64,000 nucleotides of DNA from a virus. This document shows positions 35,964-50,344 of the stretch, piece by piece (the stretch's first letter is position 1; each line of letters begins with the position of its first letter). Location of the stretch: positions 51,556 through 115,555 of IMG/VR virus record IMGVR_UViG_3300049460_000134, one strand, 5' to 3'. The notes below the pieces were generated by a model, which saw only the letters and a list, made by a program, of their open reading frames with translations, ran no database searches and was not told the origin of the DNA. The translations under genes were made by a program, and so were the position numbers.

Positions 35964-36110
35964 TATGTCCGGAATGTGTCCGTGGCTCTCCATACGCCGG
36001 AACGAGCCTAAACGTGCCGTGAAAAGCCGATTTCTATCCTAAAATCAAAGACTTATGTTCTTCTCATCGAAAGCGAGCGCACTCGAAGCGCGTCACAGAG
36101 GAGAAAGAGC

Positions 36111-36791
36111 ATGCAGTCCACGTCCAACCAGGCACCGGCCACGTCCAAGAAGATAGAGGCCTACGACTTCAAGCAGGCGGCACAGAGCCATACATCTGAC
36201 GAGTTGGCGGCGTTTGCCTTGCGTGTCGAGCAGGCGTTCACCGCAAGAGCGCAGTTCGAGCTCGACCAGACGAGCAACGCCGACGAGCCGATCCAGAAGA
36301 AGCTCGCCACCGCACGCAAGTCCTTCTCTATGCCGGACACACTGCGCGGCATGATCGAACTCAACCTCGATCCGGAGTTCATCAACGGCACGCTCTCCAA
36401 AGACGGCAAAGGCAAGCGCCTGAACGTCTATGCCATCAAGAAGGCGCAGCAGATCGTGGACTTCATGCTCGGCAAGGACAAGCTGCCGGAGGTGCTGATC
36501 GCCTGCCTCAAGTCGATGGTGGCATTCAAGGCGGCCGGCGAGAAGTTCACGGCAGAGTTTTCCAAGGCTGCAGTCTCAGACAAGATCAGGCTCGCGCCAT
36601 CTGCCGGCCTTAAGCTCCTTGTCAGGCACAACGTCGATAAGGCTACCGCCTCGACGCAGGCAAGTAGTAATATGCGCATTCTGCAGGCTCTTGGTCTGGT
36701 GAAGAACGTAGGCAGTGCACGCTCCGGTGTGTATGAGCTGACGGATACAAAGCAGGCGGTAGCGCTTGTGGATCTTCTGAGGTCAGCCTAG
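36111..36791 (+). CDS. Hypothetical protein, GC-rich member of a two-gene family
   Basis: 226 residues. The C-terminal half (LKSMVAFKAAGEKFT, then SNMRILQALGLVKN and a final Y-x-L...ALVDLLRSA) aligns by eye with the protein at 38916. The end reads like a winged helix. AGAGGAGAAAGAGC precedes ATG. It is alone between non-coding DNA and a strong terminator. Function unknown. Confidence 0.72.
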   Translation: MQSTSNQAPATSKKIEAYDFKQAAQSHTSDELAAFALRVEQAFTARAQFELDQTSNADEPIQKKLATARKSFSMPDTLRGMIELNLDPEFINGTLSKDGKGKRLNVYAIKKAQQIVDFMLGKDKLPEVLIACLKSMVAFKAAGEKFTAEFSKAAVSDKIRLAPSAGLKLLVRHNVDKATASTQASSNMRILQALGLVKNVGSARSGVYELTDTKQAVALVDLLRSA

Positions 36792-36824
36792 GCCTCGCCG
36801 GCTAGGCGAAACTGCAGAGGGGAA

Positions 36825-36865
36825 GAGGCGGTAGGCACCCAAACCTACCGCCTCGCTTTGTTTTG
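36825..36865 (+). terminator. Rho-independent terminator
   Basis: An 11-bp perfect stem GAGGCGGTAGG / CCTACCGCCTC with an 8-base loop, followed by GCTTTGTTTTG. Confidence 0.88.
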
Positions 36866-37113
36866 GCTATAGAGAGACCAAGGATATCCGTGGCAGCGGC
36901 CATTAGGAACCGGTGGGGTCCAAGGGACCGGCCGCTAGAAACCACGCATGTCCGCTCCAGGTGTAGGGGAAGGATTGGGTTGATGCCGCGGCGATCCTAG
37001 GCGATCCGTGGCAGGCCGCGGCAAACCTTGGCTGAGGCATCGCCTCCCCTCTCCTATCCGTGCCTCGCCGGAGTGATCCAGAGATTGCCGATTGCATGCC
37101 TCTCTCTATCATC

Positions 37114-37134
37114 GTATCAGTAATTATTGACTGA
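37114..37134 (+). promoter_or_regulatory. Operator copy
   Basis: TATCAGTAATTATTGACTGAC, 17 bases before ATG 37153. The 250 bases upstream hold no gene but many ATCC, CCGTGGC and CCTTGG words. Confidence 0.58.
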
Positions 37135-37152
37135 CAAACACAAGAGAGACAC

Positions 37153-37485
37153 ATGAAGATCATTACTGAAGCCGAACTGACGAGCGCTATCGAAGACTGC
37201 CTGTGCGAAGTGTTTGAGCTCGTCGTAGGCCAGCGCGCATATCTCGAAGTGCTCACGAATGAGACGGACTACGTCGGCACGCTCATCGAGTATGAGACGG
37301 ACCTTGGCTTTCACAACGCGACAAACGTCTTCGATCTGGACCTAGAGACGCGCAAGTATGCCTTTGAGCGCGCAGTGACTGCCGGCGATGCGAAACAGTC
37401 GTTCTTTGCATATGACAGCCTATCTGATGCGAAAGCACACGCCACGGCGCTGCTATTCGCAAAGCTCGACGGCTACGAAGAATAG
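37153..37485 (+). CDS. Hypothetical acidic protein
   Basis: 110 residues, alpha/beta, not recognised. Leader ACACAAGAGAGACAC. Single-gene unit. Confidence 0.68.
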   Translation: MKIITEAELTSAIEDCLCEVFELVVGQRAYLEVLTNETDYVGTLIEYETDLGFHNATNVFDLDLETRKYAFERAVTAGDAKQSFFAYDSLSDAKAHATALLFAKLDGYEE

Positions 37486-37673
37486 GCCATAGCGAGCGTC
37501 GCTGACCGCGGCGCTTTCATTTGGCTTGTCGAGTGCCGTGGCGATCCTTGGAACCCGCCGAGGGGCAGTCCACGCCACACCAGGCCGGTCCAGTCCTCAT
37601 CCGGCCAGGCCAGGTCCACGGCACGTCAGGCCGCCTCACCCTGCAAGACCCCTGCAATGCCGATTTGATCGCC

Positions 37674-37707
37674 TTTAGCGACTTCGCTAAAACAATAATT
37701 AGCGAAA
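37674..37707. promoter_or_regulatory. Second-type palindrome, first copy
   Basis: TTTAGCGACTTCGCTAAA (37674-37691) and half-site TTAGCGAAA (37699). This is the leftmost member of the motif group that runs to 49.06 kb. It replaces the first-type operator in front of the gene at 37728. Confidence 0.6.
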
Positions 37708-37727
37708 CACGAAAGAGAGACACGCGC

Positions 37728-38051
37728 ATGACCAACGAACTCGTAAAGACCGCCGCCATTGCTCTGCTCAATCATCTGTCCACGATGAACGATGATGCCT
37801 TTGAGCGCGTCGATACCGACTACATCGACTATTCGCCTGACGCGCACTTCACAGTCGCCTTGTTCGACGCGATCGAGCCAGCCAAAGACCGCAACTACTT
37901 CGACATGATTACCGAGTTCACCTACGAGCTCGCCAGTGTCACCAAGAGCGATGACGATCGTGCCGACGTCGATCGCTTCTGCACCAAGCTCTTCTCCGCC
38001 CTCCTCCGTTTCGAAATGAGCGAGAACATCCAGAGTCTCGACGCCTCATAG
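37728..38051 (+). CDS. Hypothetical acidic protein
   Basis: 107 residues, helical, acidic, not recognised. ATG 37728 follows AAAGAGAGACACGCGC, the same leader type as 37153. Preceded by the second-type palindrome. Confidence 0.66.
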   Translation: MTNELVKTAAIALLNHLSTMNDDAFERVDTDYIDYSPDAHFTVALFDAIEPAKDRNYFDMITEFTYELASVTKSDDDRADVDRFCTKLFSALLRFEMSENIQSLDAS

Positions 38052-38076
38052 CGCCGACAACATCCATTTGAACGCC

Positions 38077-38094
38077 TTTAGCGAATTCGCTAAA
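38077..38094. promoter_or_regulatory. Second-type palindrome, perfect 18-mer
   Basis: TTTAGCGAATTCGCTAAA, a perfect palindrome, 34 bases before the next gene. Best copy in the window. Confidence 0.65.
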
Positions 38095-38127
38095 TATTTA
38101 AGTGTCAACAACGTGAGAGCGAGACAC

Positions 38128-38298
38128 ATGCAAACGATCATTCCAGCGCCGACCGTCAGATACCACATAAAAGAAATGACGCCGCGCCAGTCGAACTTCG
38201 CAAGCCAAGCCCTGTCGCTTGCCAAGGAGACTGCCGCCTTCATTGCCTTTATCGTCTTCGTCTGTGCTGTCATCGCCGTGTGCGTGATAATCCACTAA
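38128..38298 (+). CDS. Small membrane protein
   Basis: 56 residues with a C-terminal transmembrane helix (AFIAFIVFVCAVIAVCVIIH) and a basic cytoplasmic start. Tail-anchored layout. Leader GAGAGCGAGACAC as for its neighbours. Confidence 0.62.
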   Translation: MQTIIPAPTVRYHIKEMTPRQSNFASQALSLAKETAAFIAFIVFVCAVIAVCVIIH

Positions 38299-38304
38299 GT
38301 CGAG

Positions 38305-38347
38305 AGCCAGGTCCGGACACCGCCATGTCACCGGACCTGGCTTTTTC
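38305..38347 (+). terminator. Rho-independent terminator
   Basis: AGCCAGGTCCGG pairs with CCGGACCTGGCT, followed by TTTTC. Confidence 0.88.
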
Positions 38348-38609
38348 ATTGCCTGAAACCATGGCATGCCACGGTTGCCAAAATCAGGAACCGAGGCTAT
38401 TCGTGCCAAGGGGATCCAGTCCGGCGAGTCCCGCTGGCGATGCCTGTCAATATATGAGCGCTCGCTACATCGCTCGACGCTTCATTAGTCGATGCTACAT
38501 TACGCGCTGCTGCATTAGTCGACGCTTCGAAAGCGCACGCTCTCACACCTCTTGCTCAATTAGCGCATGCTCACAGACACGCGCTCGCGAGCCTGTCCGT
38601 TTCCGCACC
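38348..38609. repeat. Non-coding region with imperfect tandem repeat
   Basis: No gene. CATTAGTCGA occurs at 38483 and 38513 within an imperfect 30-base repeat (CGACGCTTCATTAGTCGATG and relatives). From 38444 on it shares the GG/CC poverty of the island to its right. Confidence 0.5.
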
Positions 38610-38648
38610 AAAAACAAAGAAAAGCACACGCTTGTTTAGCGTGTGCTT
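38610..38648 (-). terminator. Terminator for the minus-strand island
   Basis: AAGCACACGC pairs with GCGTGTGCTT; read on the minus strand it is followed by TTCTTTGTTTTT. Confidence 0.8.
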
Positions 38649-38666
38649 GTATCTGCTTTTGCTGTT

Positions 38667-38846
38667 TTATTCAGCGCTCATGCGCTCGCGTTCTGTGGTG
38701 CGCACATAGTCGCGCATGTCGAAATACTCGCTTTCATAGTCGCGCTCTAACAGCGCAACGTCTGAGGTGTTAGCAAACGACATGCTAAGCGCTTGTCTGA
38801 AGTTGTCGCGCTCGCGACGCTCTTTCTTTGTCATGTGTATGCGCAT
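38667..38846 (-). CDS. Hypothetical small charged protein in the GG/CC desert
   Basis: 59 residues from ATG 38846, ten bases after GAGAG; ATG 38834 is an alternative. Sequence is almost only charged and small residues (TKKERRERDNFRQALSMSF, then LLERDYESEYFDMRDYV) and lacks Gly, Pro and Trp. Helical by pattern. Ends before the minus-strand terminator. Function unknown. Confidence 0.6.
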   Translation of the reverse strand: MRIHMTKKERRERDNFRQALSMSFANTSDVALLERDYESEYFDMRDYVRTTERERMSAE

Positions 38847-38875
38847 TATCTAAATCTCTCGTTGGTGTTTCGTGT

Positions 38876-38903
38876 GAGTGTCAGTCAATTAAGACTGACA
38901 CTC
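38876..38903 (-). promoter_or_regulatory. Longest operator palindrome
   Basis: GAGTGTCAGTC / GACTGACACTC arms of 11 bases around AATTAA: the longest perfect arms of the first palindrome type, between the two minus-strand genes. Confidence 0.65.
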
Positions 38904-38915
38904 GTTTCTGTGGTG

Positions 38916-39500
38916 TTACGCGCTCAGCTTCGCTTCAATGAGCGCAAAGATTGCGTTGTTGTTGACTGCATATTCAGTCTTGTTTTTCTGCTCAATCAGA
39001 TTGAGCGCATGCAGTGCGCGCATGCTCATGTTTGCATGTCGTGCATAGTTCGCGAATTGCGTGCGACGCTGATAGATGAGCGCTTTTTTGGTGTCGTCGA
39101 TTTTCGCGCTCGCGTTCAAGCTGTCTTCAATGTCGCGCACAGTGAAGTTTACATTAGCGTTCTTGAAGTTAACAAGCGTGCGCAACACTTCTTCGAGATT
39201 GCTCTTGAGGTGTTTTACATCGTCGCGCGTTGCGAACTTGAGCAAGCTATCAACACTGTTGATTGCTTTCATGCACATATACTTATTTTCGACGCGCTTG
39301 TCGTGCGAAAACACCTCAGAAACGTTGCTCTTCTTGAGCAACGCAGCAACGCTTTTCTGCGATACTGTGAGCGTTACATCAGTGATGAACTTGAGCGATG
39401 CAGCGCATGCACCATTTTTCAGTTCATCGTCATAGCGCTTGTTCAAATCTGCAGCGTATGCGTTGATCTTGACTTCGTTGTTCTTCGTTACTTCAGTCAT
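38916..39500 (-). CDS. Hypothetical protein in the GG/CC desert, paralogue of 36111
   Basis: 194 residues with one Gly, no Pro, no Trp; Arg is coded CGC or CGT without AGG or CGG. The C-terminal half (LRTLVNFKNANVNFT, NMSMRALHALNLIEQ, then YAVNNNAIFALIEAKLS) aligns by eye with the GC-rich protein at 36111. Helical, ending like a winged helix. Operators lie both before it and after it. Confidence 0.75.
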   Translation of the reverse strand: MTEVTKNNEVKINAYAADLNKRYDDELKNGACAASLKFITDVTLTVSQKSVAALLKKSNVSEVFSHDKRVENKYMCMKAINSVDSLLKFATRDDVKHLKSNLEEVLRTLVNFKNANVNFTVRDIEDSLNASAKIDDTKKALIYQRRTQFANYARHANMSMRALHALNLIEQKNKTEYAVNNNAIFALIEAKLSA

Positions 39501-39987
39501 TTGCTTGTCTTTCTTTCGTTGTGCTGTTTAATCAGCGTTGTTAACATGTTCACTAAACACTTATTCGCAAAAACAGTCAAGCGTATCAGTCAAAAATAAC
39601 TGACATTTTGCGAAAATAATTCGATGCACTCTATTTGACACATAGACGCGCACTGACGCGCGTTGTGTGTCGTGCGCTGTCATCTATCGTTTTTGTGCGT
39701 CGCTGCATCCCTCGTGCAACGTCGTGACAATGCGCGCGTGATTGATTCTCTAGTGTCGCGTGACAGTGTTGCTAGCGTGAGTTTTCGAGGTGAAAGCGAA
39801 GTCTTAGAAAAAAGTGCGTCGCTCGAAAGGGATGCCTCCTGCTGCGCCGACACTTCCCGGCTCGGACTACCTGTCCTCATTCCCGGCCTGGACGGACAGC
39901 ATAGGTGCGGTATGCCGAGGCCCCTCCCCTGCTCTCCCCTCTACCAGACCGCCCAGATTCCCGGATCCCGGACTACCTATCCTTATG
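39501..39987. other. Non-coding region between divergent units
   Basis: No gene seen. Left part (to about 39828) continues the GG/CC poverty with one TCCC exception at 39709; right part switches abruptly to GG/CC-rich words (CCCGGCTCGGACTACC and CCCGGACTACC, 39852 and 39966). Confidence 0.5.
39585..39605 (-). promoter_or_regulatory. Operator copy for the minus-strand island
   Basis: TATCAGTCAAAAATAACTGAC, 85 bases upstream of the 39500 start. Confidence 0.5.
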
Positions 39988-40010
39988 TGTCAGTAACTAT
40001 TGACTGACAT
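39988..40010 (+). promoter_or_regulatory. Operator copy
   Basis: TGTCAGTAACTATTGACTGACA at 39989-40010, 48 bases before ATG 40058, with CTATCCTTATG just upstream as a possible -10. Confidence 0.6.
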
Positions 40011-40057
40011 TCGACGCGCGGCTACAGTCGCCTCATCATCAACGCAGGATCTCTCCT

Positions 40058-40987
40058 ATGGAAATCACTAACTCCGGCAACCTCCAGGTCAGAACGCACG
40101 AGAACGGCGTTCAGGAATTCCTCGAGGCCCCGCTCAGCATGTCGCTGTTCAACGACTTTGAGGACCGGCTGCTGACACGCCACACGGACGGCCGCTACGT
40201 CTTCAGGGACGATCGCGGCAACGTGCTGATCTACATGAGCACTGGCCTCTCCGCGCTCGACGGCTTCCAGCGCGTCGGTCTGGAGCTCAAGAGCTACTAC
40301 GACGTGGAGCGCAACCTCTACCAGACCGCCTTCCCTCCCCTCTCCCTGACGATGAGCGACGTTCTCGTGCCGAACAGGCTTCTCCAGGAGCTGACATTCG
40401 TTCCGACCGAGGAGCCGTTCGTCTACAAGCGCACTGCTGGTCCGTTTGGCTTCCCTGTGCTCGATCTCTTCGGTCAGCTTGCCGACAGCATTCCCCTCGA
40501 GGACGCCGTAACAGCAGCCCCTGGCTATCTCAGCGGCGAGCCGACCGAACAGGAGCCTGTCACCGCCGGCTCGCTCTCGAATGCGGACGGCAGCTTCAAG
40601 ATTGACCTGGACGAAGGCGCGATCGAAATTAGCGAAAGCCAGAATTCGCTAACTCGCGTTTCCGTTCACTATGACGATCGCCGCGACCTGGTCTTCGTCG
40701 GCTATGACGTCTTGGATCACATCGACGACGACGGCGGCGCCCTGGCGCTCGAGATCGATGGCAAGGCGATCGTGCCGGCCTTTGGCTGGACGCACTACAC
40801 CTTCGAGGCGCTCGACAATCCGCTTGTGGACGAAGAGGCGCCGCTTGCTTCTGTCGCGAAAGAGCGAATTAGCGATCCGATCTGCGAAGGACCGGTCTTT
40901 CCGGATGGCAGCTTCACCAAGGATCAGATCGAAGAGGCTTTCCGCTTCCTCGTCGCCGACAAGCTCACCGATCGCAAGGCAGCCTGA
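40058..40987 (+). CDS. Hypothetical protein
   Basis: 309 residues, acidic, alpha/beta. FVGYDVLDHIDDDGGALALEIDGK and VPAFGWTHYTFEALDNP in the second half look like a beta sandwich. Two half-sites of the second palindrome (TTAGCGAAA and GAATTCGCTAA) are embedded at 40629-40652 and another at 40866. Not recognised. Confidence 0.7.
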   Translation: MEITNSGNLQVRTHENGVQEFLEAPLSMSLFNDFEDRLLTRHTDGRYVFRDDRGNVLIYMSTGLSALDGFQRVGLELKSYYDVERNLYQTAFPPLSLTMSDVLVPNRLLQELTFVPTEEPFVYKRTAGPFGFPVLDLFGQLADSIPLEDAVTAAPGYLSGEPTEQEPVTAGSLSNADGSFKIDLDEGAIEISESQNSLTRVSVHYDDRRDLVFVGYDVLDHIDDDGGALALEIDGKAIVPAFGWTHYTFEALDNPLVDEEAPLASVAKERISDPICEGPVFPDGSFTKDQIEEAFRFLVADKLTDRKAA

Positions 40988-40989
40988 GC

Positions 40990-41109
40990 ATGGACGCTGT
41001 CTCGCTCGCCGGCGATACGACTGACCTGGTGGTGAAGTCCATTGACTTCACCTTGGTGCTCATCGTCGTGATCGCCTTCATGCTCCACGATACCAAGAAT
41101 AGGATCTGA
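40990..41109 (+). CDS. Very small membrane protein
   Basis: 39 residues with one helix (FTLVLIVVIAFML). Starts two bases after the previous stop. Co-transcribed with the Acb2-like gene. Confidence 0.55.
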   Translation: MDAVSLAGDTTDLVVKSIDFTLVLIVVIAFMLHDTKNRI

Positions 41110-41110
41110 A

Positions 41111-41395
41111 ATGACGGACACCGTCAAAGGACTGCCCATAAAGGGCTACAAGAACGAGCAGCCGATCCACCTGGTCGAGCTGGTCAACGAGAACAAGGTT
41201 CTCGAGGAAATGGTTCTGCGCCAGATCGACCGGCACGTCGCACTCGGCGCCGAGGTCAATGGTCGTGACGTGCAGATGGCTCGTGGTCTGATCGAGGATG
41301 CGTTCATGCGCCTCAACCGCGGCGTATTCCAGCCGCAACGTCTCGAAGGCGAGCTCGGCGGGGCTGTCCTTGCTGATATGCTGGGAGCTGCCTGA
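41111..41395 (+). CDS. Acb2/Tad1-like cyclic-nucleotide sponge (candidate)
   Basis: 94 residues. IKGYKNE near residue 10, a long helix with LVNENKVLEEMVLRQID, then DVQMARGLIEDAFMRLNRGVFQP match the helical-hairpin pattern (I-x-GY ... AR-x-x-IE-x-xFM-x-LNR-x-V-x-QP) I recall for Acb2-type anti-CBASS proteins. These sequester signalling nucleotides as hexamers. The assignment rests on motif memory; a plain structural role is possible. Confidence 0.55.
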   Translation: MTDTVKGLPIKGYKNEQPIHLVELVNENKVLEEMVLRQIDRHVALGAEVNGRDVQMARGLIEDAFMRLNRGVFQPQRLEGELGGAVLADMLGAA

Positions 41396-41550
41396 TGAGC
41401 GTCGTCGCCCTACTCTACGTCTGGCTGGCGCTCTGGCTCCTGATCGGCATCTTTGTCGCCGGTCTGGTGCTGCTCTTCCTGCGGTTCATCTGGCGAACCT
41501 ATCGCTTTATCCAGAAAGAGCGATTTCGCGATTTAGCGAATGCACGATAA
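41395..41550 (+). CDS. Small membrane protein
   Basis: 51 residues with two close hydrophobic stretches (LLYVWLALWLLIGIFVAGLV and LLFLRF) and a basic tail. TGATG overlap with the Acb2-like gene. The second palindrome motif (GATTTAGCGAA) lies in its last codons. Confidence 0.58.
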   Translation: MSVVALLYVWLALWLLIGIFVAGLVLLFLRFIWRTYRFIQKERFRDLANAR

Positions 41551-41553
41551 AAG

Positions 41554-41580
41554 AAAGGGCGCTTAGAGCGCCCTTTGTCA
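41554..41580. terminator. Bidirectional terminator
   Basis: AAAGGGCGC / GCGCCCTTT around TTAGA, with A-rich and T-rich flanks, between convergent genes. Confidence 0.85.
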
Positions 41581-41859
41581 TTTCTGCGTCTTCTTCCAGG
41601 CCGCGAAGCACTCCTCGAGGAGTTCCTTCATCGACATGCCTCTCGCGGTCGCGGTCATCTTGAACTCCCGGCTGAATGCGCCGTCCACCTTGAAGTTCAG
41701 ATCTTTGTAGATCTTCTTGACCTTCATGTTGTCGGCCACGAATGGCGTCTCGGCGGTATCGGCGATCGTCGCCAGCAGCTTGAACTCGTCGGCCTTCTTG
41801 CTTGGCGGCTTGCCTACCGGTGCCTTGGTAGCTGCCGTTTCAACTGGTGCCTTTGTCAT
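41578..41859 (-). CDS. Ribbon-helix-helix partition partner (ParG-like)
   Basis: 93 residues. An unstructured, basic N-terminal half is followed by LNFKVDGAFSREFKMTATARGMSMKELLEECF (in parts: beta strand NFKVD, then two helices), the layout of ParG-type centromere-binding proteins. It overlaps the parA stop (ATGA). DNA target is probably the second palindrome; that is inference. Confidence 0.72.
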   Translation of the reverse strand: MTKAPVETAATKAPVGKPPSKKADEFKLLATIADTAETPFVADNMKVKKIYKDLNFKVDGAFSREFKMTATARGMSMKELLEECFAAWKKTQK

Positions 41860-42500
41860 GCTGCTTCCTCCGCGGCCTGGTTGATCCTGGTGACGATCTC
41901 GCTGGCGAGAGCCTCAGCGCGCTCGTTGAGCGACGGATACTTGGTCTCGGAGATCGCAAAGCCGGTGTTTTGAGCGGACTGATACCCTGCCCTGGTGCCT
42001 AGATCGGTATCGGCGACGTCGAAGCCCTGCTTCTTGATGAGCGCTGCTGCCTCGCGAACCGCGGCCTCACTGTCGGCCGTCTTGTTGAGGACGAAGAAGA
42101 TCTTGTCTCGGCTGACGCCTTTGGCCGCGAGCTCCTGGGCAAAGCCAAGCTGCGGCTTCAGATCGTCCACGGTCACGCCGGTCGGCACGATGACTTGGTC
42201 GGCGACCAGGGCAGCCTCGAGCGAGGTCTGAACAGAGTCCGGCGCGCCATCGACGATCAGGCAGTCGGCCGTCTCATTCTTCAGCTTCTTGACCGAGTTG
42301 AACGGCTGCGCCTCGATCTCCGGCTGGATCACACCGCGGATGCGTGCCGCCACCCAATCAACCGAAGTGAGCTGGTTGGTGTTGAAGTCGCAGATCTTCA
42401 CCGACCACTCAGCCGATGCGTAGGTTCTAGCCATCAGCCGAGCGAGCGTGGACTTGCCGACGCCGCCTTTCTGGGACAGGCACGCGATTATCAGGGTCAT
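41856..42500 (-). CDS. parA: ParA-family partition ATPase (ParF-like)
   Basis: 214 residues, the size of small type Ib ParA/ParF proteins without an N-terminal HTH. Deviant Walker A SQKGGVGKSTLA at residues 9-20, Walker A' DFNTNQLTSVDW, and DCLIVDGAPD for Walker B. Its product with the RHH protein should position DNA at cell division or act on phage DNA placement. Strong second-type palindromes lie right before its start. Confidence 0.85.
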   Translation of the reverse strand: MTLIIACLSQKGGVGKSTLARLMARTYASAEWSVKICDFNTNQLTSVDWVAARIRGVIQPEIEAQPFNSVKKLKNETADCLIVDGAPDSVQTSLEAALVADQVIVPTGVTVDDLKPQLGFAQELAAKGVSRDKIFFVLNKTADSEAAVREAAALIKKQGFDVADTDLGTRAGYQSAQNTGFAISETKYPSLNERAEALASEIVTRINQAAEEAA

Positions 42501-42502
42501 GG

Positions 42503-42554
42503 TCGCTAATTCCCGTTTGAACGATTTCGCTAAATCGTTACTTAGCGGATTCGG
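42503..42554. promoter_or_regulatory. Candidate centromere/partition operator (three second-type sites)
   Basis: TCGCTAATTC (42503), ACGATTTCGCTAAATCGTTA (42521-42540) and CTTAGCGGATTCGG (42541) within 52 bases of the parA start. ParFG-type systems carry their centromere directly upstream of the operon. Confidence 0.6.
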
Positions 42555-42590
42555 GTTAACGAGACACTACCAAATTTGAAGGGAGAGGTT

Positions 42591-42671
42591 GGCGCAGCCC
42601 ATTTGTGTCAACAACGAAACAACAAACGAGAGAGACCGGGATCTCAAACGAGAGATTTCTAGGGCTGCGCC
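42591..42671. repeat. Inverted repeat enclosing a purine-rich segment
   Basis: GGCGCAGCCC (42591-42600) and GGGCTGCGCC (42662-42671) flank 61 bases with AAACGAGAGA twice. It separates the kinase-like gene from parA. It could be an attenuator or promoter element for parA. Confidence 0.45.
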
Positions 42672-42684
42672 GGGGTATTTAGTT

Positions 42685-43179
42685 TCACGAGCTGGTGGTT
42701 TTGTCGAGGTTCTTTCGGGACACAAGACGCATCTTTTTCTCCTCCTGGATGGACTTCATGAAGCCCCAGAGGAAGCCGTAGTCGAAGAGCACCGGTCGGC
42801 CTTCGTAAAGACCCCAATTGCGGTCGTGGCAGTCGCTGAAGAAGTGCGGCACGACGGATGGAATGTCCTTGGGGTCTATCCATTCGCAGCGCTTCTGGAT
42901 GAGGATTGAGCCCTGGCGTGAGATTCCGCAGCACGGCGCCAGCCAGTGCGCGTATGGGCTCTCACAGAGATAATTCCAGACCTTGTGCTCGATGACGTTG
43001 CAGAAGGCTGCCTGATCGGACGGCCGCTCGACCTTGATGACGAACTCGCTAGGCTGCCAGGAGCTCTCATAGACGGCGCGATGCCTGCCGCCGCCCAGGT
43101 ATTCGCCGAGCATGAAGCCGTTAAACTCCTCCTGGATCTCACGAAGGAAGTCATACATGGGTGTAGGAGAGTTGCTCAT
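42685..43179 (-). CDS. Small protein-kinase-like protein
   Basis: 164 residues. FMLGEYLGGGRHRAVYES resembles a glycine-rich loop, VIKVERP carries a candidate Lys, FSDCHDRNWGLYEGRPVLFDYGF resembles the catalytic loop (H-D-x-N) and DFG (here DYG). It is far shorter than a full kinase C-lobe and ends just after the DYG, so it may be a minimal or inactive kinase. Coupled to the upstream gene. Confidence 0.6.
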   Translation of the reverse strand: MSNSPTPMYDFLREIQEEFNGFMLGEYLGGGRHRAVYESSWQPSEFVIKVERPSDQAAFCNVIEHKVWNYLCESPYAHWLAPCCGISRQGSILIQKRCEWIDPKDIPSVVPHFFSDCHDRNWGLYEGRPVLFDYGFLWGFMKSIQEEKKMRLVSRKNLDKTTSS

Positions 43180-43550
43180 AGCGGCTCAAACTCCGGCATA
43201 TCGAAGATTTCCTCGTAGATCTCCGGTGTCTGGGCGTCGAGCGCCTCCCAGGTCAACCGCATGGCGTCCTGGTTACACATCGTCTCGGTGCAGCAGGTGG
43301 CGATATCGACCTTGTGCTTCTCAGCCACGAAGCCGGCGAGGTCATTGCCACGCATCATCAGATCGAACCGATCGACCTTGGCGTTGCGCTTGGTTCGCGC
43401 AATCGCGAAATCGCTATTTACCGAATTCGTTGGATCGCTAGGTCCAAGCCCATAATCGGAGTCTCGAAATATGCAGTGCGTCGGCGTGCTCCCATGGGGC
43501 TCCCGATCGAGGAACCCCTTGAGCTGGCCTTTAAACCAGACTTGCATCAT
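43176..43550 (-). CDS. Hypothetical protein
   Basis: 124 residues, Cys in TCCTETMCNQ, acidic end. The second palindrome type is embedded at 43401-43442 (AATCGCGAAATCGC, CCGAATTCG). Overlaps both neighbours by ATGA-type junctions. Not recognised. Confidence 0.66.
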   Translation of the reverse strand: MMQVWFKGQLKGFLDREPHGSTPTHCIFRDSDYGLGPSDPTNSVNSDFAIARTKRNAKVDRFDLMMRGNDLAGFVAEKHKVDIATCCTETMCNQDAMRLTWEALDAQTPEIYEEIFDMPEFEPL

Positions 43551-44122
43551 GCCGCTTCACTCGACGGGACGGAGCCGATGACCGCGAAGAGCTTCTCAGC
43601 CAGGTCTTTGCGCGCAGCTTCCGGCGACAGACCGCGCGCCAGGCCGTCGTTCTTGATCTTGGCATGCGCATAGGCCGGATTGTAGGTGTCGAATTCGAAC
43701 TTGGAGGGGCCAGCGAGAGGATTCTCGATCTCCAGCACCAGAGCATCTTGTTCGCGCCAGTAGCGGCCTTGCTCGCGACGCACGGAGCCAAAGACGGAGT
43801 AGGAGCCCTTGGGGCGCGCGTTGTCGCTCATGATCGGGATGATATCGCCGCCAAACTTCTCCTCGAAGGCATTGCCGATCTCGCCGAGGATCTCGCGCAC
43901 CTGCCATTCACGGCCATTGATGGTGACAAATTCGAGCTTGCCGGCCTGAGTGAAGACCTGGTCAGCGGTCAATCCCAGGTAATCCATGGCAATCTTGCGC
44001 AATGGAAGGCCGTCATCGGCGAGCTCATGCCCGTAGGCGGCGTTGATGATTTCAGCGGCCGTGGTTTTGCCGGAAGTCGGGTTGCCGCAAAGGGCGATCT
44101 TGCGAGGGAGGTTTGACGACAT
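43547..44122 (-). CDS. P-loop deoxynucleoside monophosphate kinase-like protein
   Basis: 191 residues from ATG 44122 behind CAGGAG. Walker A GNPTSGKTTAA near residue 13; REQGRYWREQDALVLEIENP resembles the phage dNMP kinase middle part. It probably supplies dNDPs for replication. Distinct from the kinase at 7304. Confidence 0.72.
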   Translation of the reverse strand: MSSNLPRKIALCGNPTSGKTTAAEIINAAYGHELADDGLPLRKIAMDYLGLTADQVFTQAGKLEFVTINGREWQVREILGEIGNAFEEKFGGDIIPIMSDNARPKGSYSVFGSVRREQGRYWREQDALVLEIENPLAGPSKFEFDTYNPAYAHAKIKNDGLARGLSPEAARKDLAEKLFAVIGSVPSSEAA

Positions 44123-44139
44123 AGAAAAGCTCCTGCGTT

Positions 44140-44162
44140 TGTCAGTCAATATTTACTGACAC
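44140..44162 (-). promoter_or_regulatory. Operator copy before the minus-strand operon
   Basis: On the minus strand, TGTCAGTAAATATTGACTGAC sits 20 bases before the kinase ribosome site. Confidence 0.6.
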
Positions 44163-44175
44163 TACAACAGGAGCT

Positions 44176-44213
44176 GATTTAGCGGAAGCACGAATTAGCG
44201 AATTCGCTTAAGC
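44176..44213. promoter_or_regulatory. Second-type palindrome pair
   Basis: GATTTAGCGGAA and AATTAGCGAATTCGCTTAAG, overlapping the end of the 44208 gene. Confidence 0.55.
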
Positions 44214-44390
44214 AGGATCGATTTCCTCAATGAAACCGGCCTGTTTGGCCTTGCGCACGAGCTTGGAAAGCTTGGCGTTGTCCTTCAATAGCTCGTCGAT
44301 CGAGTCCAGCAGGAACTTTTCCGTGACAGCGGCAAGACCGGTTGTGTTGAAGAAGTGGATCGGGTCCACAAGGCGACGTTCTGCGGTCAT
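44208..44390 (-). CDS. Hypothetical small helical protein
   Basis: 60 residues from ATG 44390, overlapping the helicase stop (ATGA). Helical with Leu/Lys repeats (SIDELLKDNAKLSKLVRKAK). Not recognised; may assist the helicase. Confidence 0.62.
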   Translation of the reverse strand: MTAERRLVDPIHFFNTTGLAAVTEKFLLDSIDELLKDNAKLSKLVRKAKQAGFIEEIDPA

Positions 44391-45985
44391 GCTGCTTTCC
44401 TCTGTGCTGCAAAGATGGACCAATCGAAATCCTGGTTGGCCGGCAGAATGCCTTCAGCGAAGCCAGGGGTGCTTTTGACAACGTTGCGCCGACTCGCGGT
44501 GTGCTCAGACAGCGAGATATTGCCAGCGCAGTTGTAGTCGGCGATGAATGCGACGTTCGGCATGCCCTTTTTCGCACGCAGACCGCGACCGATGCGCTGA
44601 CGCAGGGCGACTTCAGCCTTCCCACCGCCGGCGAGCTGCACCAGGCCGAGAGCAGGGACGTCAACACCAACATCAACGATGGTGGAGCCGATGATACCGT
44701 CGATCTCACCGCGGCCGAGCTCGCCAAGCGCCTTCTTGCGCTCTGCCTGGCTGGCCTTGCCGTTCAGGAAGACGACCCTCAGGCCGACGTGCTCCATCTT
44801 CCGAGCGAGCGCCAGACCGTGATCCTCGCGAATGATGAGCGTCAGAAAGGGCAGACCGTAGCGCTTTGCCATTAGAGCATCACGAATGATGTCCTTGTGC
44901 ATGTGCGCGTTCTTCAGGTAGCCGAACTCATAGGCGCGCTGCCAGGGCGACGTCCGAAAGATCTCCTTCGGCGCCTGGCTTTGGACGTATTTGAAATACG
45001 GCTTTGCCAGGATGCCGAGGTTGATGAGCTGCTCTTCGCTGATCCGGATGAGCACTGAGCCGAAAGCAGCCATCAGACGCATGTTGTCTTCGGCGTCGTC
45101 GCGCATAAACGGGGTCGCAGTCAGAGCAACGCGGATCGACGCGTTCTTGCAGAACTGCAGGATCTGGTAATAGCTGTCACCGCCGGCCTCGTGAGCCTCT
45201 TCGCCAATCACGACCTCGATCATTTCGAGGAAAGTGATGTAGCGATTTCGCCTTTTCGTCTTTTCGCGAACTCGCTCTTCCGCCAATTCGCGGATCTGCT
45301 CCTTCGGCATGTTCGAATCCTTCTTCTTCGAACGATGCTGGGACTTGGTAACAGCGATGATCTCTTCCTGGAGGTTCGGCTCCTTCAGCGCAGCAACGAG
45401 TGTCTGCACCATGCCGAGGTTGATGCCCTTGACCATCTTCTCGACGCCGTCACCGACCATGCCGGTGTTGATGCCGAGTTCGTCGAGCTGCTCGCCCATC
45501 TGATACATGAGCACGCCGCGCGTCGTCAGGAAGAGGGTAGGGCGCCTGAAGCGCATCATGATAAGCTTGGCGATCTTCGACTTGCCGCCGCCGGTGGCGA
45601 CCTGGATGATGCCGCGGCCATGTCGTTCGACGGCCTTCAAGGCTTTCATCTGGTAGTCGTAGCGCGGATCGTCATTGCCGAACTCGTCAACGATCGGGCT
45701 CTCCGGACCAAGCGGCTCGTGATGTGGCTTGCGAACGAGCTGAACCTTGAAGCCGCGGCGCGTCAGCTCGGCGTGGATCATGTAGGCGAAGCCAGCCGGA
45801 AAGCTCTGTGTCTTGAAGGCGTAGAACGACGAGCGACCATCCCATGTGCCCTGATTGAAGGCGAAGGACTGCTCAGCACCGGAGACCATGTAGGAGAGAA
45901 GTTCCGAAACGATACCTTCGACCTTCTCGGTAGGGTCGATCAGCTTCGCGTTCACGGCGTTATGCGCCAGTTTCACAAGGGTCAT
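44387..45985 (-). CDS. uvsW: SF2 helicase, UvsW-like
   Basis: 532 residues. N-terminal about 110 residues are an extra module; then Q-type site DYQMKAL, motif I ATGGGKSK, Ia FLTTRG, motif II EEAH, motif III TATPF, a C-terminal RecA lobe with VGVDVPAL and motif VI QRIGRGLR. UvsW-type helicases unwind branched DNA and R-loops during phage replication and recombination. Second-type palindromes lie in its codons at 45240-45296. Confidence 0.82.
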   Translation of the reverse strand: MTLVKLAHNAVNAKLIDPTEKVEGIVSELLSYMVSGAEQSFAFNQGTWDGRSSFYAFKTQSFPAGFAYMIHAELTRRGFKVQLVRKPHHEPLGPESPIVDEFGNDDPRYDYQMKALKAVERHGRGIIQVATGGGKSKIAKLIMMRFRRPTLFLTTRGVLMYQMGEQLDELGINTGMVGDGVEKMVKGINLGMVQTLVAALKEPNLQEEIIAVTKSQHRSKKKDSNMPKEQIRELAEERVREKTKRRNRYITFLEMIEVVIGEEAHEAGGDSYYQILQFCKNASIRVALTATPFMRDDAEDNMRLMAAFGSVLIRISEEQLINLGILAKPYFKYVQSQAPKEIFRTSPWQRAYEFGYLKNAHMHKDIIRDALMAKRYGLPFLTLIIREDHGLALARKMEHVGLRVVFLNGKASQAERKKALGELGRGEIDGIIGSTIVDVGVDVPALGLVQLAGGGKAEVALRQRIGRGLRAKKGMPNVAFIADYNCAGNISLSEHTASRRNVVKSTPGFAEGILPANQDFDWSIFAAQRKAA

Positions 45986-46027
45986 AAAAATCTCACGTTG
46001 CCTGTTGCGTTCGGTTCCGGATATGAT

Positions 46028-46049
46028 GTAAGTAAATACTGACTGACAA
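46028..46049. promoter_or_regulatory. Operator copy in a divergent promoter region
   Basis: AGTAAGTAAATACTGACTGACA between the helicase (minus) and ParB (plus) starts, 29 bases before ATG 46078. One operator may serve both directions. Confidence 0.55.
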
Positions 46050-46077
46050 ACGCCAACTATTCAAGGCTTAGAATAAG

Positions 46078-46836
46078 ATGACAGAAGTGGAGCCCCTGAA
46101 GGGCTATCCGAAATACGGGGAAGCGGATCCATCCACGCTGCAGCCGAATCCCTGGAATACAAACATCATGACGCCGGAGAACGAGCAGAAGCTTGAGGCG
46201 TCTATGAAGCGCTTCGGCATCTTCCGTCCGGTTGTCGTTCGCGAAATCGTTAATTCGCGAAATGGCGACAAAACTTTGCAGATCTTGGGTGGTCAACACC
46301 GCAACGAGATCGCGCAGCGGCAGGGGAGGGGAGTGGTCCCGATCGTCAATCTGGGGCCAATCGATGAGGAGAAGGCCAAGGAGATCGGTATCGCCGACAA
46401 CGCACGATACGGCGTCGATGATGCCATCGCGTTCGGCGAACTCATCAAAAGCCTCGCTCATGCCGACCAACTCGCTGACTTCCTTCCCTACACCCAAAAT
46501 GAATTCGACAGTTTCGTCACGTCGTCTGAAATAGACTTGGATTCATTGGATTTCGAAGAAAACTTCGAAAAAAGCGAGGAGAACGACACTTCTCCGCAGC
46601 CTGAGACTGAGAAGCCTGCCAAGACGCATACGATCCTGCGTTTCAAGTGCTCCAACCGCGACGCCGAAGACATCACCGCCAGAATCGAGGCTGTGAAACA
46701 GGCGCAGGGCTTCATCGGCTCCGACGATCTCACCAATGCCGGCGACGCGCTGGCTCACCTCCTTCTGCATGCCGTTAGTGGTCAGTCAAATTTGACTGAT
46801 GATCTCGAAGACATCGACGCCGGAGACGACGAATGA
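46078..46836 (+). CDS. ParB/sulfiredoxin-domain protein 1
   Basis: 252 residues. Residues about 15-110 are a ParB-N/Srx domain (LQPNPWNTNIM, FRPVVVREIV, ILGGQHRNEIAQRQGRG, IADNARYGVDDAI). The G-x-H-R motif is the CTP/ATP-binding or nuclease-type site. No HTH centromere domain follows; the C-terminus is acidic then a small alpha/beta end. Such proteins precede terminase in many phages. Confidence 0.78.
   Translation: MTEVEPLKGYPKYGEADPSTLQPNPWNTNIMTPENEQKLEASMKRFGIFRPVVVREIVNSRNGDKTLQILGGQHRNEIAQRQGRGVVPIVNLGPIDEEKAKEIGIADNARYGVDDAIAFGELIKSLAHADQLADFLPYTQNEFDSFVTSSEIDLDSLDFEENFEKSEENDTSPQPETEKPAKTHTILRFKCSNRDAEDITARIEAVKQAQGFIGSDDLTNAGDALAHLLLHAVSGQSNLTDDLEDIDAGDDE
46780..46800 (+). promoter_or_regulatory. 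Operator palindrome inside the ParB gene
   Basis: GGTCAGTCAAATTTGACTGA near the end of the ParB gene, 33 bases before the next ATG. Confidence 0.5.
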
Positions 46837-47015
46837 ACGTCCGGCCGAAGTTCGACGACTGCACAGGCTGCAAATACTTCCTGAAGAACCGCCGCAACCC
46901 GATCTGCGGCGAGTGTGACGCCGGCGAGTTCTTCGAAACCAAAACCAGAGTCCGGGAGAAGAGCCCGGATGAACTCATGAAGCTTTACGGGGAACTTTCC
47001 GACCATGACGAATAG
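46833..47015 (+). CDS. Small zinc-finger-type protein
   Basis: 60 residues with CTGCKYF and ICGECD: two CxxC pairs 15 residues apart. Between two ParB-domain genes, overlapping both. Confidence 0.65.
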   Translation: MNVRPKFDDCTGCKYFLKNRRNPICGECDAGEFFETKTRVREKSPDELMKLYGELSDHDE

Positions 47016-47676
47016 CCTAGCCGTCCAGATCCTCGATCTGGCTTCTCTCATCCCACACGCCAAGAACGCCAAGAAGCATTCCGACGAGCAGGTTGCCAAT
47101 ATCGCAGCCCTCATCAAGCGCCTTGGCTGGACGAGCCCGATCGTTGTCGACAAGGATCTGGTCATCATCGCCGGTCACGGCCGCCGCCTGGCCGCCCTGC
47201 ACCTCGGGATGACGAAGGTTCCGGTCATCGTTCGTGACGATCTCAGCAAGGAAGAGGCTGAAGCGCTTCGCCTGGCTGACAACCGCGTCGCATCGACCGA
47301 CTACGACTTGGCGCTGGAGCAGGAAGCTCTGCAGGCGCTCGCCGAATTCAACCTCGATCTCGACTTCTCGGTCATGGGCTACACCGAGCGCGAGCTCGAT
47401 TTCATGACCAACGACCTCGGCGCGATGGATGAGAGCCTCTTCGTCGAGGATATCTCCGAAGCCGTCCAGGGTCAGAAGGAAGACAACGAGAAGAAGGTCG
47501 AGGAGGTCGATGATATCGCAGCTCCGGTCGCCGACGCTCTTGGCTTCAAGCGCGTGACGATCGCCGAAAGCCGCGTCCTGCGCGATCTCATGGGTCGAAT
47601 GGAGCAGGCAACCGGCCTGCAGGGCGCTCCGGCGCTCATCGGCTTCATCCAGTCGAGCCTGGATCGCGCTGCATGA
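47005..47676 (+). CDS. ParB/sulfiredoxin-domain protein 2
   Basis: 223 residues. ParB-N domain at residues about 5-95: LIPHAKNAKKHSDEQ, GWTSPIVVD, IIAGHGRRLAALHLG, LRLADNRVAST. The rest is helical and acidic. Phage proteins of this type are often annotated ParB-like nuclease; the second of a tandem pair. Confidence 0.8.
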   Translation: MTNSLAVQILDLASLIPHAKNAKKHSDEQVANIAALIKRLGWTSPIVVDKDLVIIAGHGRRLAALHLGMTKVPVIVRDDLSKEEAEALRLADNRVASTDYDLALEQEALQALAEFNLDLDFSVMGYTERELDFMTNDLGAMDESLFVEDISEAVQGQKEDNEKKVEEVDDIAAPVADALGFKRVTIAESRVLRDLMGRMEQATGLQGAPALIGFIQSSLDRAA

Positions 47677-48086
47677 CCGATGTGATCGACATCAAGACTC
47701 GTCGCCCCTGGGCTTTGGCACGCGCTGAAGCCCAGAAGGCCAGGCGCAAGGCCAAGCGCCAGGAGAAGAAGGAAGCCAAGGAAGGCATCGAGGAGCACAA
47801 GGCAGCCATGCTCGAGGTGCTCGATGGCGTGCGCAAACTCGTCGAGGCAGGCCGTCTGGAAGGGCTGCTGCTGATCGCACGCGAGCCGAAGACCAAGCAC
47901 TTCTTCACCGAAGTCGTCCTTGATGACCGCATCATCACGAACAATGACCTCCACTCGTTCGTCGGCTGCCTGGAAACCCTGAAGATCGAGCTGGCTGACG
48001 GCGCGGCAATGGCGCCGGCGCTGATGCTCGATGGCTCAACCATTGATCCGGAAATGGAGCCGCCGGAATACGAGGAATTCGAATGA
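47673..48086 (+). CDS. Hypothetical protein
   Basis: 137 residues. Basic helical start (EAQKARRKAKRQEKKEAKE), then alpha/beta with HFFTEVVLDDRI. Not recognised. Overlaps both neighbours by four bases, inside the ParB-ABC string. Confidence 0.65.
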   Translation: MTDVIDIKTRRPWALARAEAQKARRKAKRQEKKEAKEGIEEHKAAMLEVLDGVRKLVEAGRLEGLLLIAREPKTKHFFTEVVLDDRIITNNDLHSFVGCLETLKIELADGAAMAPALMLDGSTIDPEMEPPEYEEFE

Positions 48087-48727
48087 CCGTCTATACGATC
48101 AACAAATCCTTCACCTCATCGGTGGAGCGCACGGATCGCGTGCTTGAAATGGCTGAGAGCTTCGGCCTGGGACTGACCGACAAAGAGTTCACGATCTACA
48201 AGGATCTGGAGCTCAACGTTCCGCAAGGCTCGATCGTCTACATCAACGGCCAATCTGGCTCCGGCAAGTCGCTGCTCCTGCGCGAGCTGTCGGCCGCCAT
48301 GCGCGCCGGTGGTCTCAAGGTCGCCGACCTGAACGAGATTGAGCTGCCCGAAAAGCCGGTGATCGAGATTGTCGGCAAATCCACGAGCGAAGCGCTGCAC
48401 CTCCTGGCGCTCGCCGGTATCTCTGACGCCTGGATCTATATCCGCAAGCCGTCGGAGCTCTCTGACGGGCAGCGCTACCGCCTGAAGCTCGCAGTCCTCC
48501 TTGAGCAAGACGCCGATGTATGGGTTGCCGACGAGTTCGGCGCCGTTCTCGATCGCGTCTGCGCCAAGGTGATTTCTTTCAATCTCCAGAAGGTCGCTCG
48601 CCAGCACGGCAAAACATTCATGGTTGCCACCACGCACACCGATCTCGTCGATGAACTTGGTCCGGATCTGTCGATCTACAAGGAATTCAAGGAGCGCGTG
48701 CTGGTCAAAGAGAAGGCCGCGGCATGA
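48083..48727 (+). CDS. ABC-type ATPase (COG2401-like half)
   Basis: 214 residues. Walker A NGQSGSGKSLLL, a signature-like PSELSDGQRYRLKLAVLL, Walker B VWVADEFGA and a switch His in TTHTD. No membrane domain: a soluble ABC ATPase. From memory, COG2401 is an ABC ATPase fused to an acetyltransferase; here the two are separate genes 1 kb apart. Confidence 0.8.
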   Translation: MTVYTINKSFTSSVERTDRVLEMAESFGLGLTDKEFTIYKDLELNVPQGSIVYINGQSGSGKSLLLRELSAAMRAGGLKVADLNEIELPEKPVIEIVGKSTSEALHLLALAGISDAWIYIRKPSELSDGQRYRLKLAVLLEQDADVWVADEFGAVLDRVCAKVISFNLQKVARQHGKTFMVATTHTDLVDELGPDLSIYKEFKERVLVKEKAAA

Positions 48728-49014
48728 ATTACGGTCAGGCACTCGAATATCTGAAACGCGGCGGCACAGCCAGGCGCAAAGCCTGGCGCAGCGGTTTCGT
48801 CTACCTGGAGCTCGGCTCACGCGATCAGTCCAAGCTTTTCGGCCGCAGTCGGATCGAGGCTGTCCTCGATGCCGACCTCTTCGAGAAGGGCGCGAAGGGA
48901 ACAACCACGCGCCTCCCGAACCTGAATTTGAAGAATGCCGACGGGACGACCATGACTGGCTGGCAGGCCTCTCAGGTCGATACCCTGGCTGATGATTGGG
49001 AGCTGATGGAGTGA
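48724..49014 (+). CDS. Tad2-like (DUF2829) anti-Thoeris candidate
   Basis: 96 residues. NYGQALEYLKRGGTARRKAW at the start and NLKNADGTTMTGWQASQVD...DDWELM at the end match DUF2829 (N-x-G-x-AL...R-x-GW; K-x-x-DG-x-x-x-x-W-x-x-S-Q-x-D-x-L-A-x-DW). Tad2 proteins bind the Thoeris signal gcADPR and block that defence. Length is normal. Whether the pocket residues are intact was not tested. Confidence 0.78.
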   Translation: MNYGQALEYLKRGGTARRKAWRSGFVYLELGSRDQSKLFGRSRIEAVLDADLFEKGAKGTTTRLPNLNLKNADGTTMTGWQASQVDTLADDWELME

Positions 49015-49124
49015 TGGCGAAGTCGCTAATTCTATCTTTCGCTATTTCGCTACTGGTGAGCACTTGCAGCGCGACAGCACCAGTCTTCGCAAAACTCGAC
49101 GGAGCGCGCTGTGAGCGAATCTGA
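49014..49124 (+). CDS. Very small lipoprotein candidate
   Basis: 36 residues: SLILSFAISLLVSTC is a hydrophobic segment ending in a lipobox-like LVSTC, with a short tail. Overlaps the previous stop (TGATG) and the GNAT start. Contains second-type palindrome words (GAAGTCGCTAATTC, TTTCGCTATTTCGC). Confidence 0.45.
   Translation: MAKSLILSFAISLLVSTCSATAPVFAKLDGARCERI
49017..49056. promoter_or_regulatory. Second-type motif cluster, last copy
   Basis: GCGAAGTCGCTAATTC and TTTCGCTATTTCGC. The rightmost members of the motif group; none seen from here to 64 kb. Confidence 0.45.
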
Positions 49125-49977
49125 AGCGATTGTGACGTATAACAAGAACGCACGAGGGGTCTTTGCGCTCGCGAACGAAATGTTTGTTGAGCGAGGGGCG
49201 CGTTCGGATTGGGAATTGCTCCACGATCTCCATTACAAGGCAGAAGGTCTGCCGATTGGACCGCAGTTCTGGAAGCTGCATCTTCGAGGCGAAACCGTCG
49301 GCGTCCTGGTCATCGGCCAGCCGAAAGGCATGCTGAAGGAGCGCCATCGTGTGTTCCCGAACATGGCACCTGGCGCCAACGAGACGAAGCTGACCAACAC
49401 CAACCGGTTCCGGCACATCAACCAGAACTTCCGGGTGATCTCGCGCTTCGTGATCGACACCAGGTTCCGCGGTATCGGCGCCGGCTACCGGATGATGAAT
49501 CTGGTCAGCCGCATGGATGGGCATCGCTTCATCGAGATCCAGTCCTCGATGTCGAAGTTCAACATCTTCGGCCAGAAGGCAGGCTTCAAGTTCGTCCGAC
49601 CGATGAACGCCAACAAGTTCGAGAAGGGCATGAAGTTCTTCCGCTCGCACTTTCAGGCATCACCCCAGGACTTCGAGGCGATCGTCAACGAGATCGAGAT
49701 GTCGGCGAGCCGCGACAAGCTGTTTGCCGAGTGCAAGATCTTCTATCAGCGCCATTCGGCTCTGGAGAACACTGGTGCAGCTCGCGATCGTGCCGACGGC
49801 CGCGTTGCCTCGATGTCGATCCGCGATGTGGTGAAGGGCATTCAGCAGATGAGCCTCGCAAGCCCGATGTATGGCATCTGGGAAGCGCCTGATCTTGGCC
49901 GCGAGGTTCCAGCAGTCATGCCTCTGACGGCGTTTGACTGCCAGAAGCCGACTGAGCCGTTGCGGTGGAAGCCGTGA
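49111..49977 (+). CDS. GNAT-fold acyltransferase, possible Mom-like DNA modifier
   Basis: 288 residues from GTG 49111, six bases after GGAG. GNAT core: VGVLVIGQ strand, VISRFVIDTRFRGIGAGYRMM with the acetyl-CoA loop R-G-I-G-A-G near residue 128, then IEIQSSMSKFNIFGQKAGFKFV. The C-terminal 100 residues are unlike ordinary GNATs. Phage Mu Mom is a GNAT-fold DNA modifier; association with an ABC ATPase and ParB domains next to terminase makes this plausible here but unproven. Confidence 0.7.
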   Translation: MSESEAIVTYNKNARGVFALANEMFVERGARSDWELLHDLHYKAEGLPIGPQFWKLHLRGETVGVLVIGQPKGMLKERHRVFPNMAPGANETKLTNTNRFRHINQNFRVISRFVIDTRFRGIGAGYRMMNLVSRMDGHRFIEIQSSMSKFNIFGQKAGFKFVRPMNANKFEKGMKFFRSHFQASPQDFEAIVNEIEMSASRDKLFAECKIFYQRHSALENTGAARDRADGRVASMSIRDVVKGIQQMSLASPMYGIWEAPDLGREVPAVMPLTAFDCQKPTEPLRWKP

Positions 49978-50219
49978 CGCTCATTCTGCGCACCAAGAAG
50001 CAGCGTGAGATCGCGGATATCATTCTTCGAGCCGCAGACCAGGGAACGTTTCTGAACGTGACCGAAATCTACGAAATGCTTTCGTGGAACAATGCCTATG
50101 GCTCACTCCGGAAGACGATCAAGTCTTTCGAGGACCGGAACCTAGTGGTGAAGGAACGAGCCGGAATGTGTGTTCTGATTAAGCCTACTCAGGCCCTCTA
50201 TGACTGGTTCCGTAACTAA
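49974..50219 (+). CDS. Winged-helix-type small protein
   Basis: 81 residues from GTG 49974 (GTGA overlap); GTG 49965 is an alternative. REIADIILRAADQGTFLNVTEIYEML...YGSLRKTIKSFEDRNLVV reads as a winged helix. Possible regulator of the late genes; inference. Confidence 0.6.
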   Translation: MTLILRTKKQREIADIILRAADQGTFLNVTEIYEMLSWNNAYGSLRKTIKSFEDRNLVVKERAGMCVLIKPTQALYDWFRN

Positions 50220-50220
50220 A

Positions 50221-50297
50221 TCCGGAGCCGTCTTCTCACTAATATATCTACTTAGATATTTAGATATGTATTTATATTAGTGAGAAGATGGACCGGA
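50221..50297. repeat. Long inverted repeat, copy 2
   Basis: Arms of about 24 bases (TCCGGAGCCGTCTTCTCACT at the left; core TCTTCTCACTAATAT / ATATTAGTGAGAAGA) around a 28-base AT-rich spacer. Compared with copy 1 at 35892 one G-C pair is swapped to C-G on both arms (TGTTCTC to TCTTCTC). It sits between the early/middle genes and the terminase operator. Confidence 0.8.
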
Positions 50298-50316
50298 TTG
50301 AAGCTACGTGCCATAA

Positions 50317-50339
50317 TGTCAGTAAATACTGATTGACAA
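50317..50339 (+). promoter_or_regulatory. Operator copy before terminase
   Basis: ATGTCAGTAAATACTGATTGAC; CATAAT just upstream may be the -10. Drives the packaging genes. Confidence 0.58.
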
Positions 50340-50344
50340 ATTGA

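Follow-up and report, generated by a model that had tools for sequence, protein, structure and literature searches.

The open reading frame at 41111-41395 raises the question of whether this phage makes a protein that sequesters the signalling nucleotides of bacterial immunity and, if so, to which of the known sponge families that protein belongs. The window, which is the whole stretch of 64,000 nucleotides that was analysed, corresponds to bases 51556-115555 of a virus record of 115,555 bases. The original prediction placed at this position a helical hairpin protein of the Acb2/Tad1 type, flanked by two tiny membrane proteins, and the list of open reading frames agrees with the exact position and puts the ORF on the + strand. 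The gene and its closest surroundings contain the following features.

40990..41109, + strand: 39-aa ORF with one hydrophobic segment, the upstream neighbour (best 19-residue hydropathy 2.4)
41111..41395, + strand: acb2-like gene, 94 aa, ATG start, with the Acb2/Tad1 hairpin domain (matched by Pfam over residues 22-74) and a GY loop at residues 12-13
41395..41550, + strand: 51-aa ORF with one long hydrophobic segment (best 19-residue hydropathy 2.9), its start overlapping the acb2-like stop
41554..41576, no strand assigned: bidirectional terminator-like hairpin between the + strand run and convergent ribbon-helix-helix-like and ParA-like genes

The acb2-like gene is intact and lies head-to-tail within a compact + strand run (40058-41550), and its stop shares one base with the next start (TGATG). 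The 94-residue product, MTDTVKGLPIKGYKNEQ...FMRLNRGVFQPQRLEG..., contains both of the motifs that had been read from it, namely the I-x-GY start (I10-K11-G12-Y13) and the end AR-x-x-IE...FM-x-LNR-x-V-x-QP (A57-P75). In comparisons with relatives, dN/dS was 0.16-0.47 in the seven of ten in which both rates were finite; of the other three, two were saturated at synonymous sites and one compared identical sequences. The codons are under purifying selection, which together with the head-to-tail packing and the shared stop/start base argues that the ORF is a real gene.

The 94-aa protein has a single Pfam match, the Acb2/Tad1 hairpin family PF24729, at 39.6 bits (E 6e-10) against a curated cut-off of 27 bits. 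Records of relatives were above this cut-off in nine of nine cases, and the model found one match in the whole record of the phage and none in 14 control genomes. The match is not due to chance. The name of the family spans both Acb2 and Tad1, so the two had to be told apart. A profile of nine sequences compared with the PDB recovered T4 Vs.4/Acb2 (E 4e-7) and PaP2 p26 Acb2 (8e-7) and did not find Tad1. A profile of 82 relatives recovered PaP2 Acb2 at E 2e-10 and T4 Acb2 at 2e-9, with Tad1 marginal at E 0.073 or weaker over 27 residues. The single 94-aa sequence had no match in the PDB by phmmer, so the tie to the solved Acb2 structures rests on the profiles. Among the PHROGs the ORF matched only phrog_717, an unnamed family, at E 0.004, and PADLOC gave no match for the ORF, the Tad2-like protein described below or the neighbours.

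Structure prediction points in the same direction. An AlphaFold2 monomer model was built from an alignment of the window protein with 78 relatives taken from viral and genome contigs (79 rows in all) and reached a mean pLDDT of 91.6 and a pTM of 0.72. It consists of a two-helix hairpin (helices 19-44 and 51-73) and a short helix at 84-90, and the N-terminal segment comes out as coil with two 3-residue strands and no helix. When the model was compared with the PDB by Foldseek, the top nine matches were all Acb2 chains (probability 0.89-1.00, E 0.03-0.19, none with an E-value <0.001), and the probability fell to 0.20 at the tenth. The three best entries in VIA-align were also Acb2, with Z 7.9-8.5 over 70-72 residues, rmsd 2.1-2.5 A and 21-25% identity in the structural alignment. 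The first unrelated entry had Z 6.5, and helical hairpins carry a high background Z, so that Z by itself is not decisive; taken together with the sequence match, the values agree with Acb2. The hairpin and the Acb2/Tad1-type identity of the original prediction are thus borne out, no unrelated structural family having emerged from the profile search, and profile and fold comparison narrow the identity to Acb2.

A Tad1-type protein would sequester the glyco-cyclic ADP-ribose of Thoeris instead of, or besides, CBASS nucleotides. Tad1 belongs to the same Pfam hairpin family, its chains stand at the edge of the search with the larger profile, aligned along R..A.T..E.AFM..NR.V, and the C-terminal hairpin with the motif R..A.T..E..M..NR.V is common to the window protein and the solved Tad1 structures (PDB 7uav, 8smd, 8kbe). 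However, in Tad1 the hairpin is preceded by an antiparallel beta-sheet domain at the N-terminus (PMC12043709). The window protein, at 94 aa and with only the two 3-residue strands in its model, has no such domain and begins its first long helix at residue 19, and Acb2 chains score better than Tad1 by seven to eight orders of magnitude. Tad1 identity was rejected on the missing domain and the weak profile score, and a Tad1-type role is extremely unlikely; the lack of the beta domain argues for an Acb2-type protein. The probability that this is a generic helical-hairpin virion or regulatory protein that resembles Acb2 by chance is practically negligible. Two-helix hairpins do give middling structural scores with many proteins, but here the sequence match is above the curated cut-off, the profile reaches Acb2 at the E-value given above, and Glu32, Asn69 and Arg70 are invariant (82/82 rows) and the GY near-invariant across relatives in diverse gene contexts. 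We are therefore confident that 41111-41395 encodes an Acb2-type sponge. The small protein very probably soaks up CBASS alarm nucleotides, as its relationship to the solved sponges suggests, and it is an ordinary, previously undescribed member of the known Acb2 family.

The residues of the nucleotide pockets were located through the profile alignment, and their conservation was counted over 82 aligned rows.

41147..41149, + strand: Tyr13 codon, aligned with T4 Acb2 Tyr8 of the cyclic-dinucleotide pocket; Y in 81/82 rows, with one gap
41195..41197, + strand: Lys29 codon, aligned with PaP2-type Acb2 Lys26; K in 81/82 rows
41264..41266, + strand: Arg52 codon, aligned with PaP2-type Acb2 Arg67; R in 76/82 rows
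41327..41329, + strand: Phe73 codon, aligned with T4 Acb2 Phe82; F in 78/82 rows

Lys26 of the PaP2-type protein presumably serves the dinucleotide site, and Arg67, the counterpart of Arg52, is taken here to serve the trinucleotide site. Tyr13 and Phe73 are the counterparts of two T4 Acb2 residues, Tyr8 and Phe82, that are required for function (PMC12657218). The Y8A mutation disrupts the binding of dinucleotides; Phe82, the residue mutated in an escaper phage, stacks against the bound dinucleotide (PMC12657218). Judged by this alignment, the residues of the dinucleotide pocket are conserved in the window protein. It departs from its relatives at Asn50, which is Asp in 79/82 rows, and at Asp53, which is Trp in 53/82 rows.

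The window protein has in common with Acb2 of T4 (Vs.4, PDB 7uq2) and of Pseudomonas phage PaP2 (p26, PDB 8h2j/8ixz) a single hairpin, a length of about 90-95 aa, the GY loop, NxxK and the C-terminal R-x-V/I-x-QP. It differs in the length of the hairpin core, which measures 63 residues from Tyr13 to Pro75 against 77 in T4 Acb2 and 80 in PaP2 Acb2 and is thus shorter by 14 and 17 residues, respectively. In the 81 rows in which this length was counted it ranges over 59-77 and is most often 61, which indicates a branch with a shorter hairpin; unlike T4 and PaP2 Acb2, the branch occurs mainly in alphaproteobacterial phages and genomes. The shortened part adjoins Arg52, and the geometry of a hexamer may differ from that in T4 and PaP2 on account of the shorter core. 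RHph_X66, a relative from the same phage group, has a hairpin of T4 length, so the tip of the hairpin varies in length and the ends are fixed. The nearest named relative is gene 066 of Rhizobium phage B1VFA (75.6% identity over 78 aa). This protein and its kin (V1VFA-S, RHph_X66) have 155-157 aa, with a cysteine cluster (GCGxCERC) in an N-terminal extension, and the neighbouring gene is HslV-like; the window has neither the extension nor the HslV-like neighbour. Acb2-type proteins with the extension are encoded at L003 14767-15240, L005 7812-8282 and L006 8815-9282, and the extension may add a metal-binding part to the sponge. In a relative from a Caulobacter phage the N-terminus is longer and different.

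The HslV-like neighbour bears on whether the sponge fold may have been kept with a changed ligand or job, for instance as a nucleotide-binding or oligomerising hairpin that is partner or regulator of the hydrolase of the relatives. By phmmer, HslV-like ORFs were found in 22 of 111 fetched loci (a count that takes in one weak match, L094, and one contig twice, as L011 and L017), mostly starting at or just after the stop of the hairpin gene, and the hairpin of the window protein is short. Yet nothing HslV-like turned up at E up to 10 in the record of the window, possibly an incomplete one, and the hairpin gene is conserved nonetheless; the residues of the dinucleotide pocket are present in nearly all 82 rows. 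A changed job is very unlikely. A broader reading is somewhat less so, though still improbable: a short-hairpin alphaproteobacterial Acb2 branch would have its own ligand range (the CBASS signals of Rhizobiaceae) and would in many relatives share a counter-defence operon with the genes for a small membrane protein and an HslV-like N-terminal hydrolase. The window phage would hold a reduced form of this operon that lacks the hydrolase.

The HslV-family (N-terminal hydrolase) gene itself, at L003 15237-15746 and in 21 other loci, lies directly 3' of the Acb2-like gene in most of them, with stop and start overlapping in several. Several relatives also have a small hydrophobic ORF after the hairpin gene. 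Eleven matches, with L011 and its duplicate L017 counted, resemble the one in L011; the 51-aa ORF of the window is not among them. In Rhizobium phage RHph_X2_26, the gene at L008 3432-4237, immediately 5' of an 82-aa Acb2-type hairpin gene, is annotated as a TIR-domain protein, and Pfam gives instead DUF1937/DUF4406 and, weakly, nucleoside deoxyribosyltransferase. Around the hairpin gene of 15 more distant relatives the neighbours differ, a diversity of context that fits an accessory gene.

Studies of solved Acb2 proteins have described a homohexamer in which dinucleotides bind in pockets where protomers meet head-to-head and trinucleotides can sit at the ends of a central channel, and the CBASS signals are sequestered uncut (PMC12043709, PMC10419184). 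Tad2 has been reported to bind cyclic-ADP-ribose signals and some dinucleotides (PMC12043709). In an Acb2-type role, the 94-aa protein would be made in quantity during infection and, as we infer from the solved relatives, its hairpins would assemble into a homohexamer. Each pocket would form where the end of one protomer that carries Tyr13 and Lys29 meets the Phe73 end of a second protomer, and would bind cyclic dinucleotides, and cyclic trinucleotides would perhaps be bound too. CBASS signals would thereby be kept from their effectors and the cell would not abort the infection, and a separate Tad2-like protein would cover the cyclic-ADP-ribose signals of Thoeris and some dinucleotides. We infer from the two proteins together that the phage may counter both CBASS and Thoeris.

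The second sponge candidate, which had also been predicted in the same phage, lies about 7.3 kb downstream of the acb2-like gene.

48724..49014, + strand: Tad2-like gene, 96 aa, companion sponge candidate

Its product belongs to a different family from the 94-aa protein, namely Tad2 (PF11195), which matches the first 94 residues at 61.3 bits against a cut-off of 25 and upholds the prediction; a six-frame search of the phage's own record also matched the gene. The presence of a Tad2-like gene was then checked in 21 records or genomes (nine and twelve) chosen from the 111 loci. It was found in 10. Eleven of the 21 are virus records of 86 kb or more, and these include all 10; the one large virus record lacking it is G006 (119,863 bases). 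The other 10 lacking it were shorter records (seven) and bacterial genomes (three). Where coordinates were worked out, the two genes are 7-8 kb apart. The pair in 10 of the 11 large records indicates that possession of both sponges is a common trait of the phage group and no accident of the window. Acb2-type and Tad2-type sponges thus occur together, with conserved spacing where it was worked out, in most of the phages of about 115-122 kb that were checked, which leads to the prediction that in rhizobia these phages should withstand immunity based on cyclic oligonucleotides as well as immunity based on cyclic ADP-ribose. The analysis gives the Acb2 family a well-supported member from Rhizobium-type phages. 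It leaves the understanding of the family unchanged, and its interest comes from the pairing of the sponges and from the branch with a short hairpin.

Possible targets were surveyed across the bacterial family to which G003 (Agrobacterium vitis, the source of L096) belongs, with 199 genomes covered; this may not be the host family of the window phage. SMODS (CD-NTase) matches were present in 29 of the 199 genomes, 25 of them over the cut-off, ThsB_TIR in 16 and STALD (ThsA-type) in two; these counts are of single domains and not of complete systems. Panoptes (mCpol) has been shown to punish carriers of Acb2 (PMC12657218). mCpol was found in 0 of the 199 genomes, so there is no sign of Panoptes pressure in this family. 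A literature search at the level of titles and abstracts returned no paper on Acb2 in rhizobial phages, and the passages on anti-defence proteins in PMC10799925 name neither Acb2 nor Tad2.

Around the acb2-like gene, on the + strand, a 309-aa protein is followed by the 39-aa hydrophobic ORF, the acb2-like gene and the 51-aa hydrophobic ORF. The 309-aa protein (40058-40987) has no significant family match, and its only matches among the fetched loci are a near-identical contig and the window's own copy. The two flanking hydrophobic ORFs exist as predicted, and the 51-aa ORF occupies the position that hydrophobic ORFs of 62-76 aa have in relatives. The further suggestion that they may serve anti-defence is not supported: neither has a family match better than E 0.05, and the only homologues among the fetched loci are those of L010/L016, a near-identical contig, and of L002, which is the window's own copy. 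The number of terminator-like sites is not significant (two found against 2.3 expected in shuffles). The convergent run beyond the site at 41554..41576 encodes a small, possibly ribbon-helix-helix protein (a weak match) and ParA-like, deoxynucleotide-kinase-like and helicase genes. Further downstream are two ParB-like genes, an ABC-ATPase-like gene, the Tad2-like gene and the genes for the large terminase, portal and major head protein.

When bases 36000-56000 of the window were compared at the DNA level, ten phage records were found, all of Rhizobium phages of 115-122 kb (RHEph10 twice), with 75-79% identity over 5-48% of the query. RHEph10, although related in its DNA, is absent from the 11 records with a tblastn match to the acb2-like protein, so either some members of the group lack the gene or it has diverged in RHEph10. 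Upstream in the window are genes for ribonucleotide reductase, thymidylate synthase and rIIA/rIIB-like proteins, the rIIA- and rIIB-like lysis-inhibition genes lying adjacent at 7979-11724. A 724-aa ORF (29744-31918) has no PHROGs match at E 0.001, and a long antisense ORF (30173-31942, - strand) runs over the same stretch.
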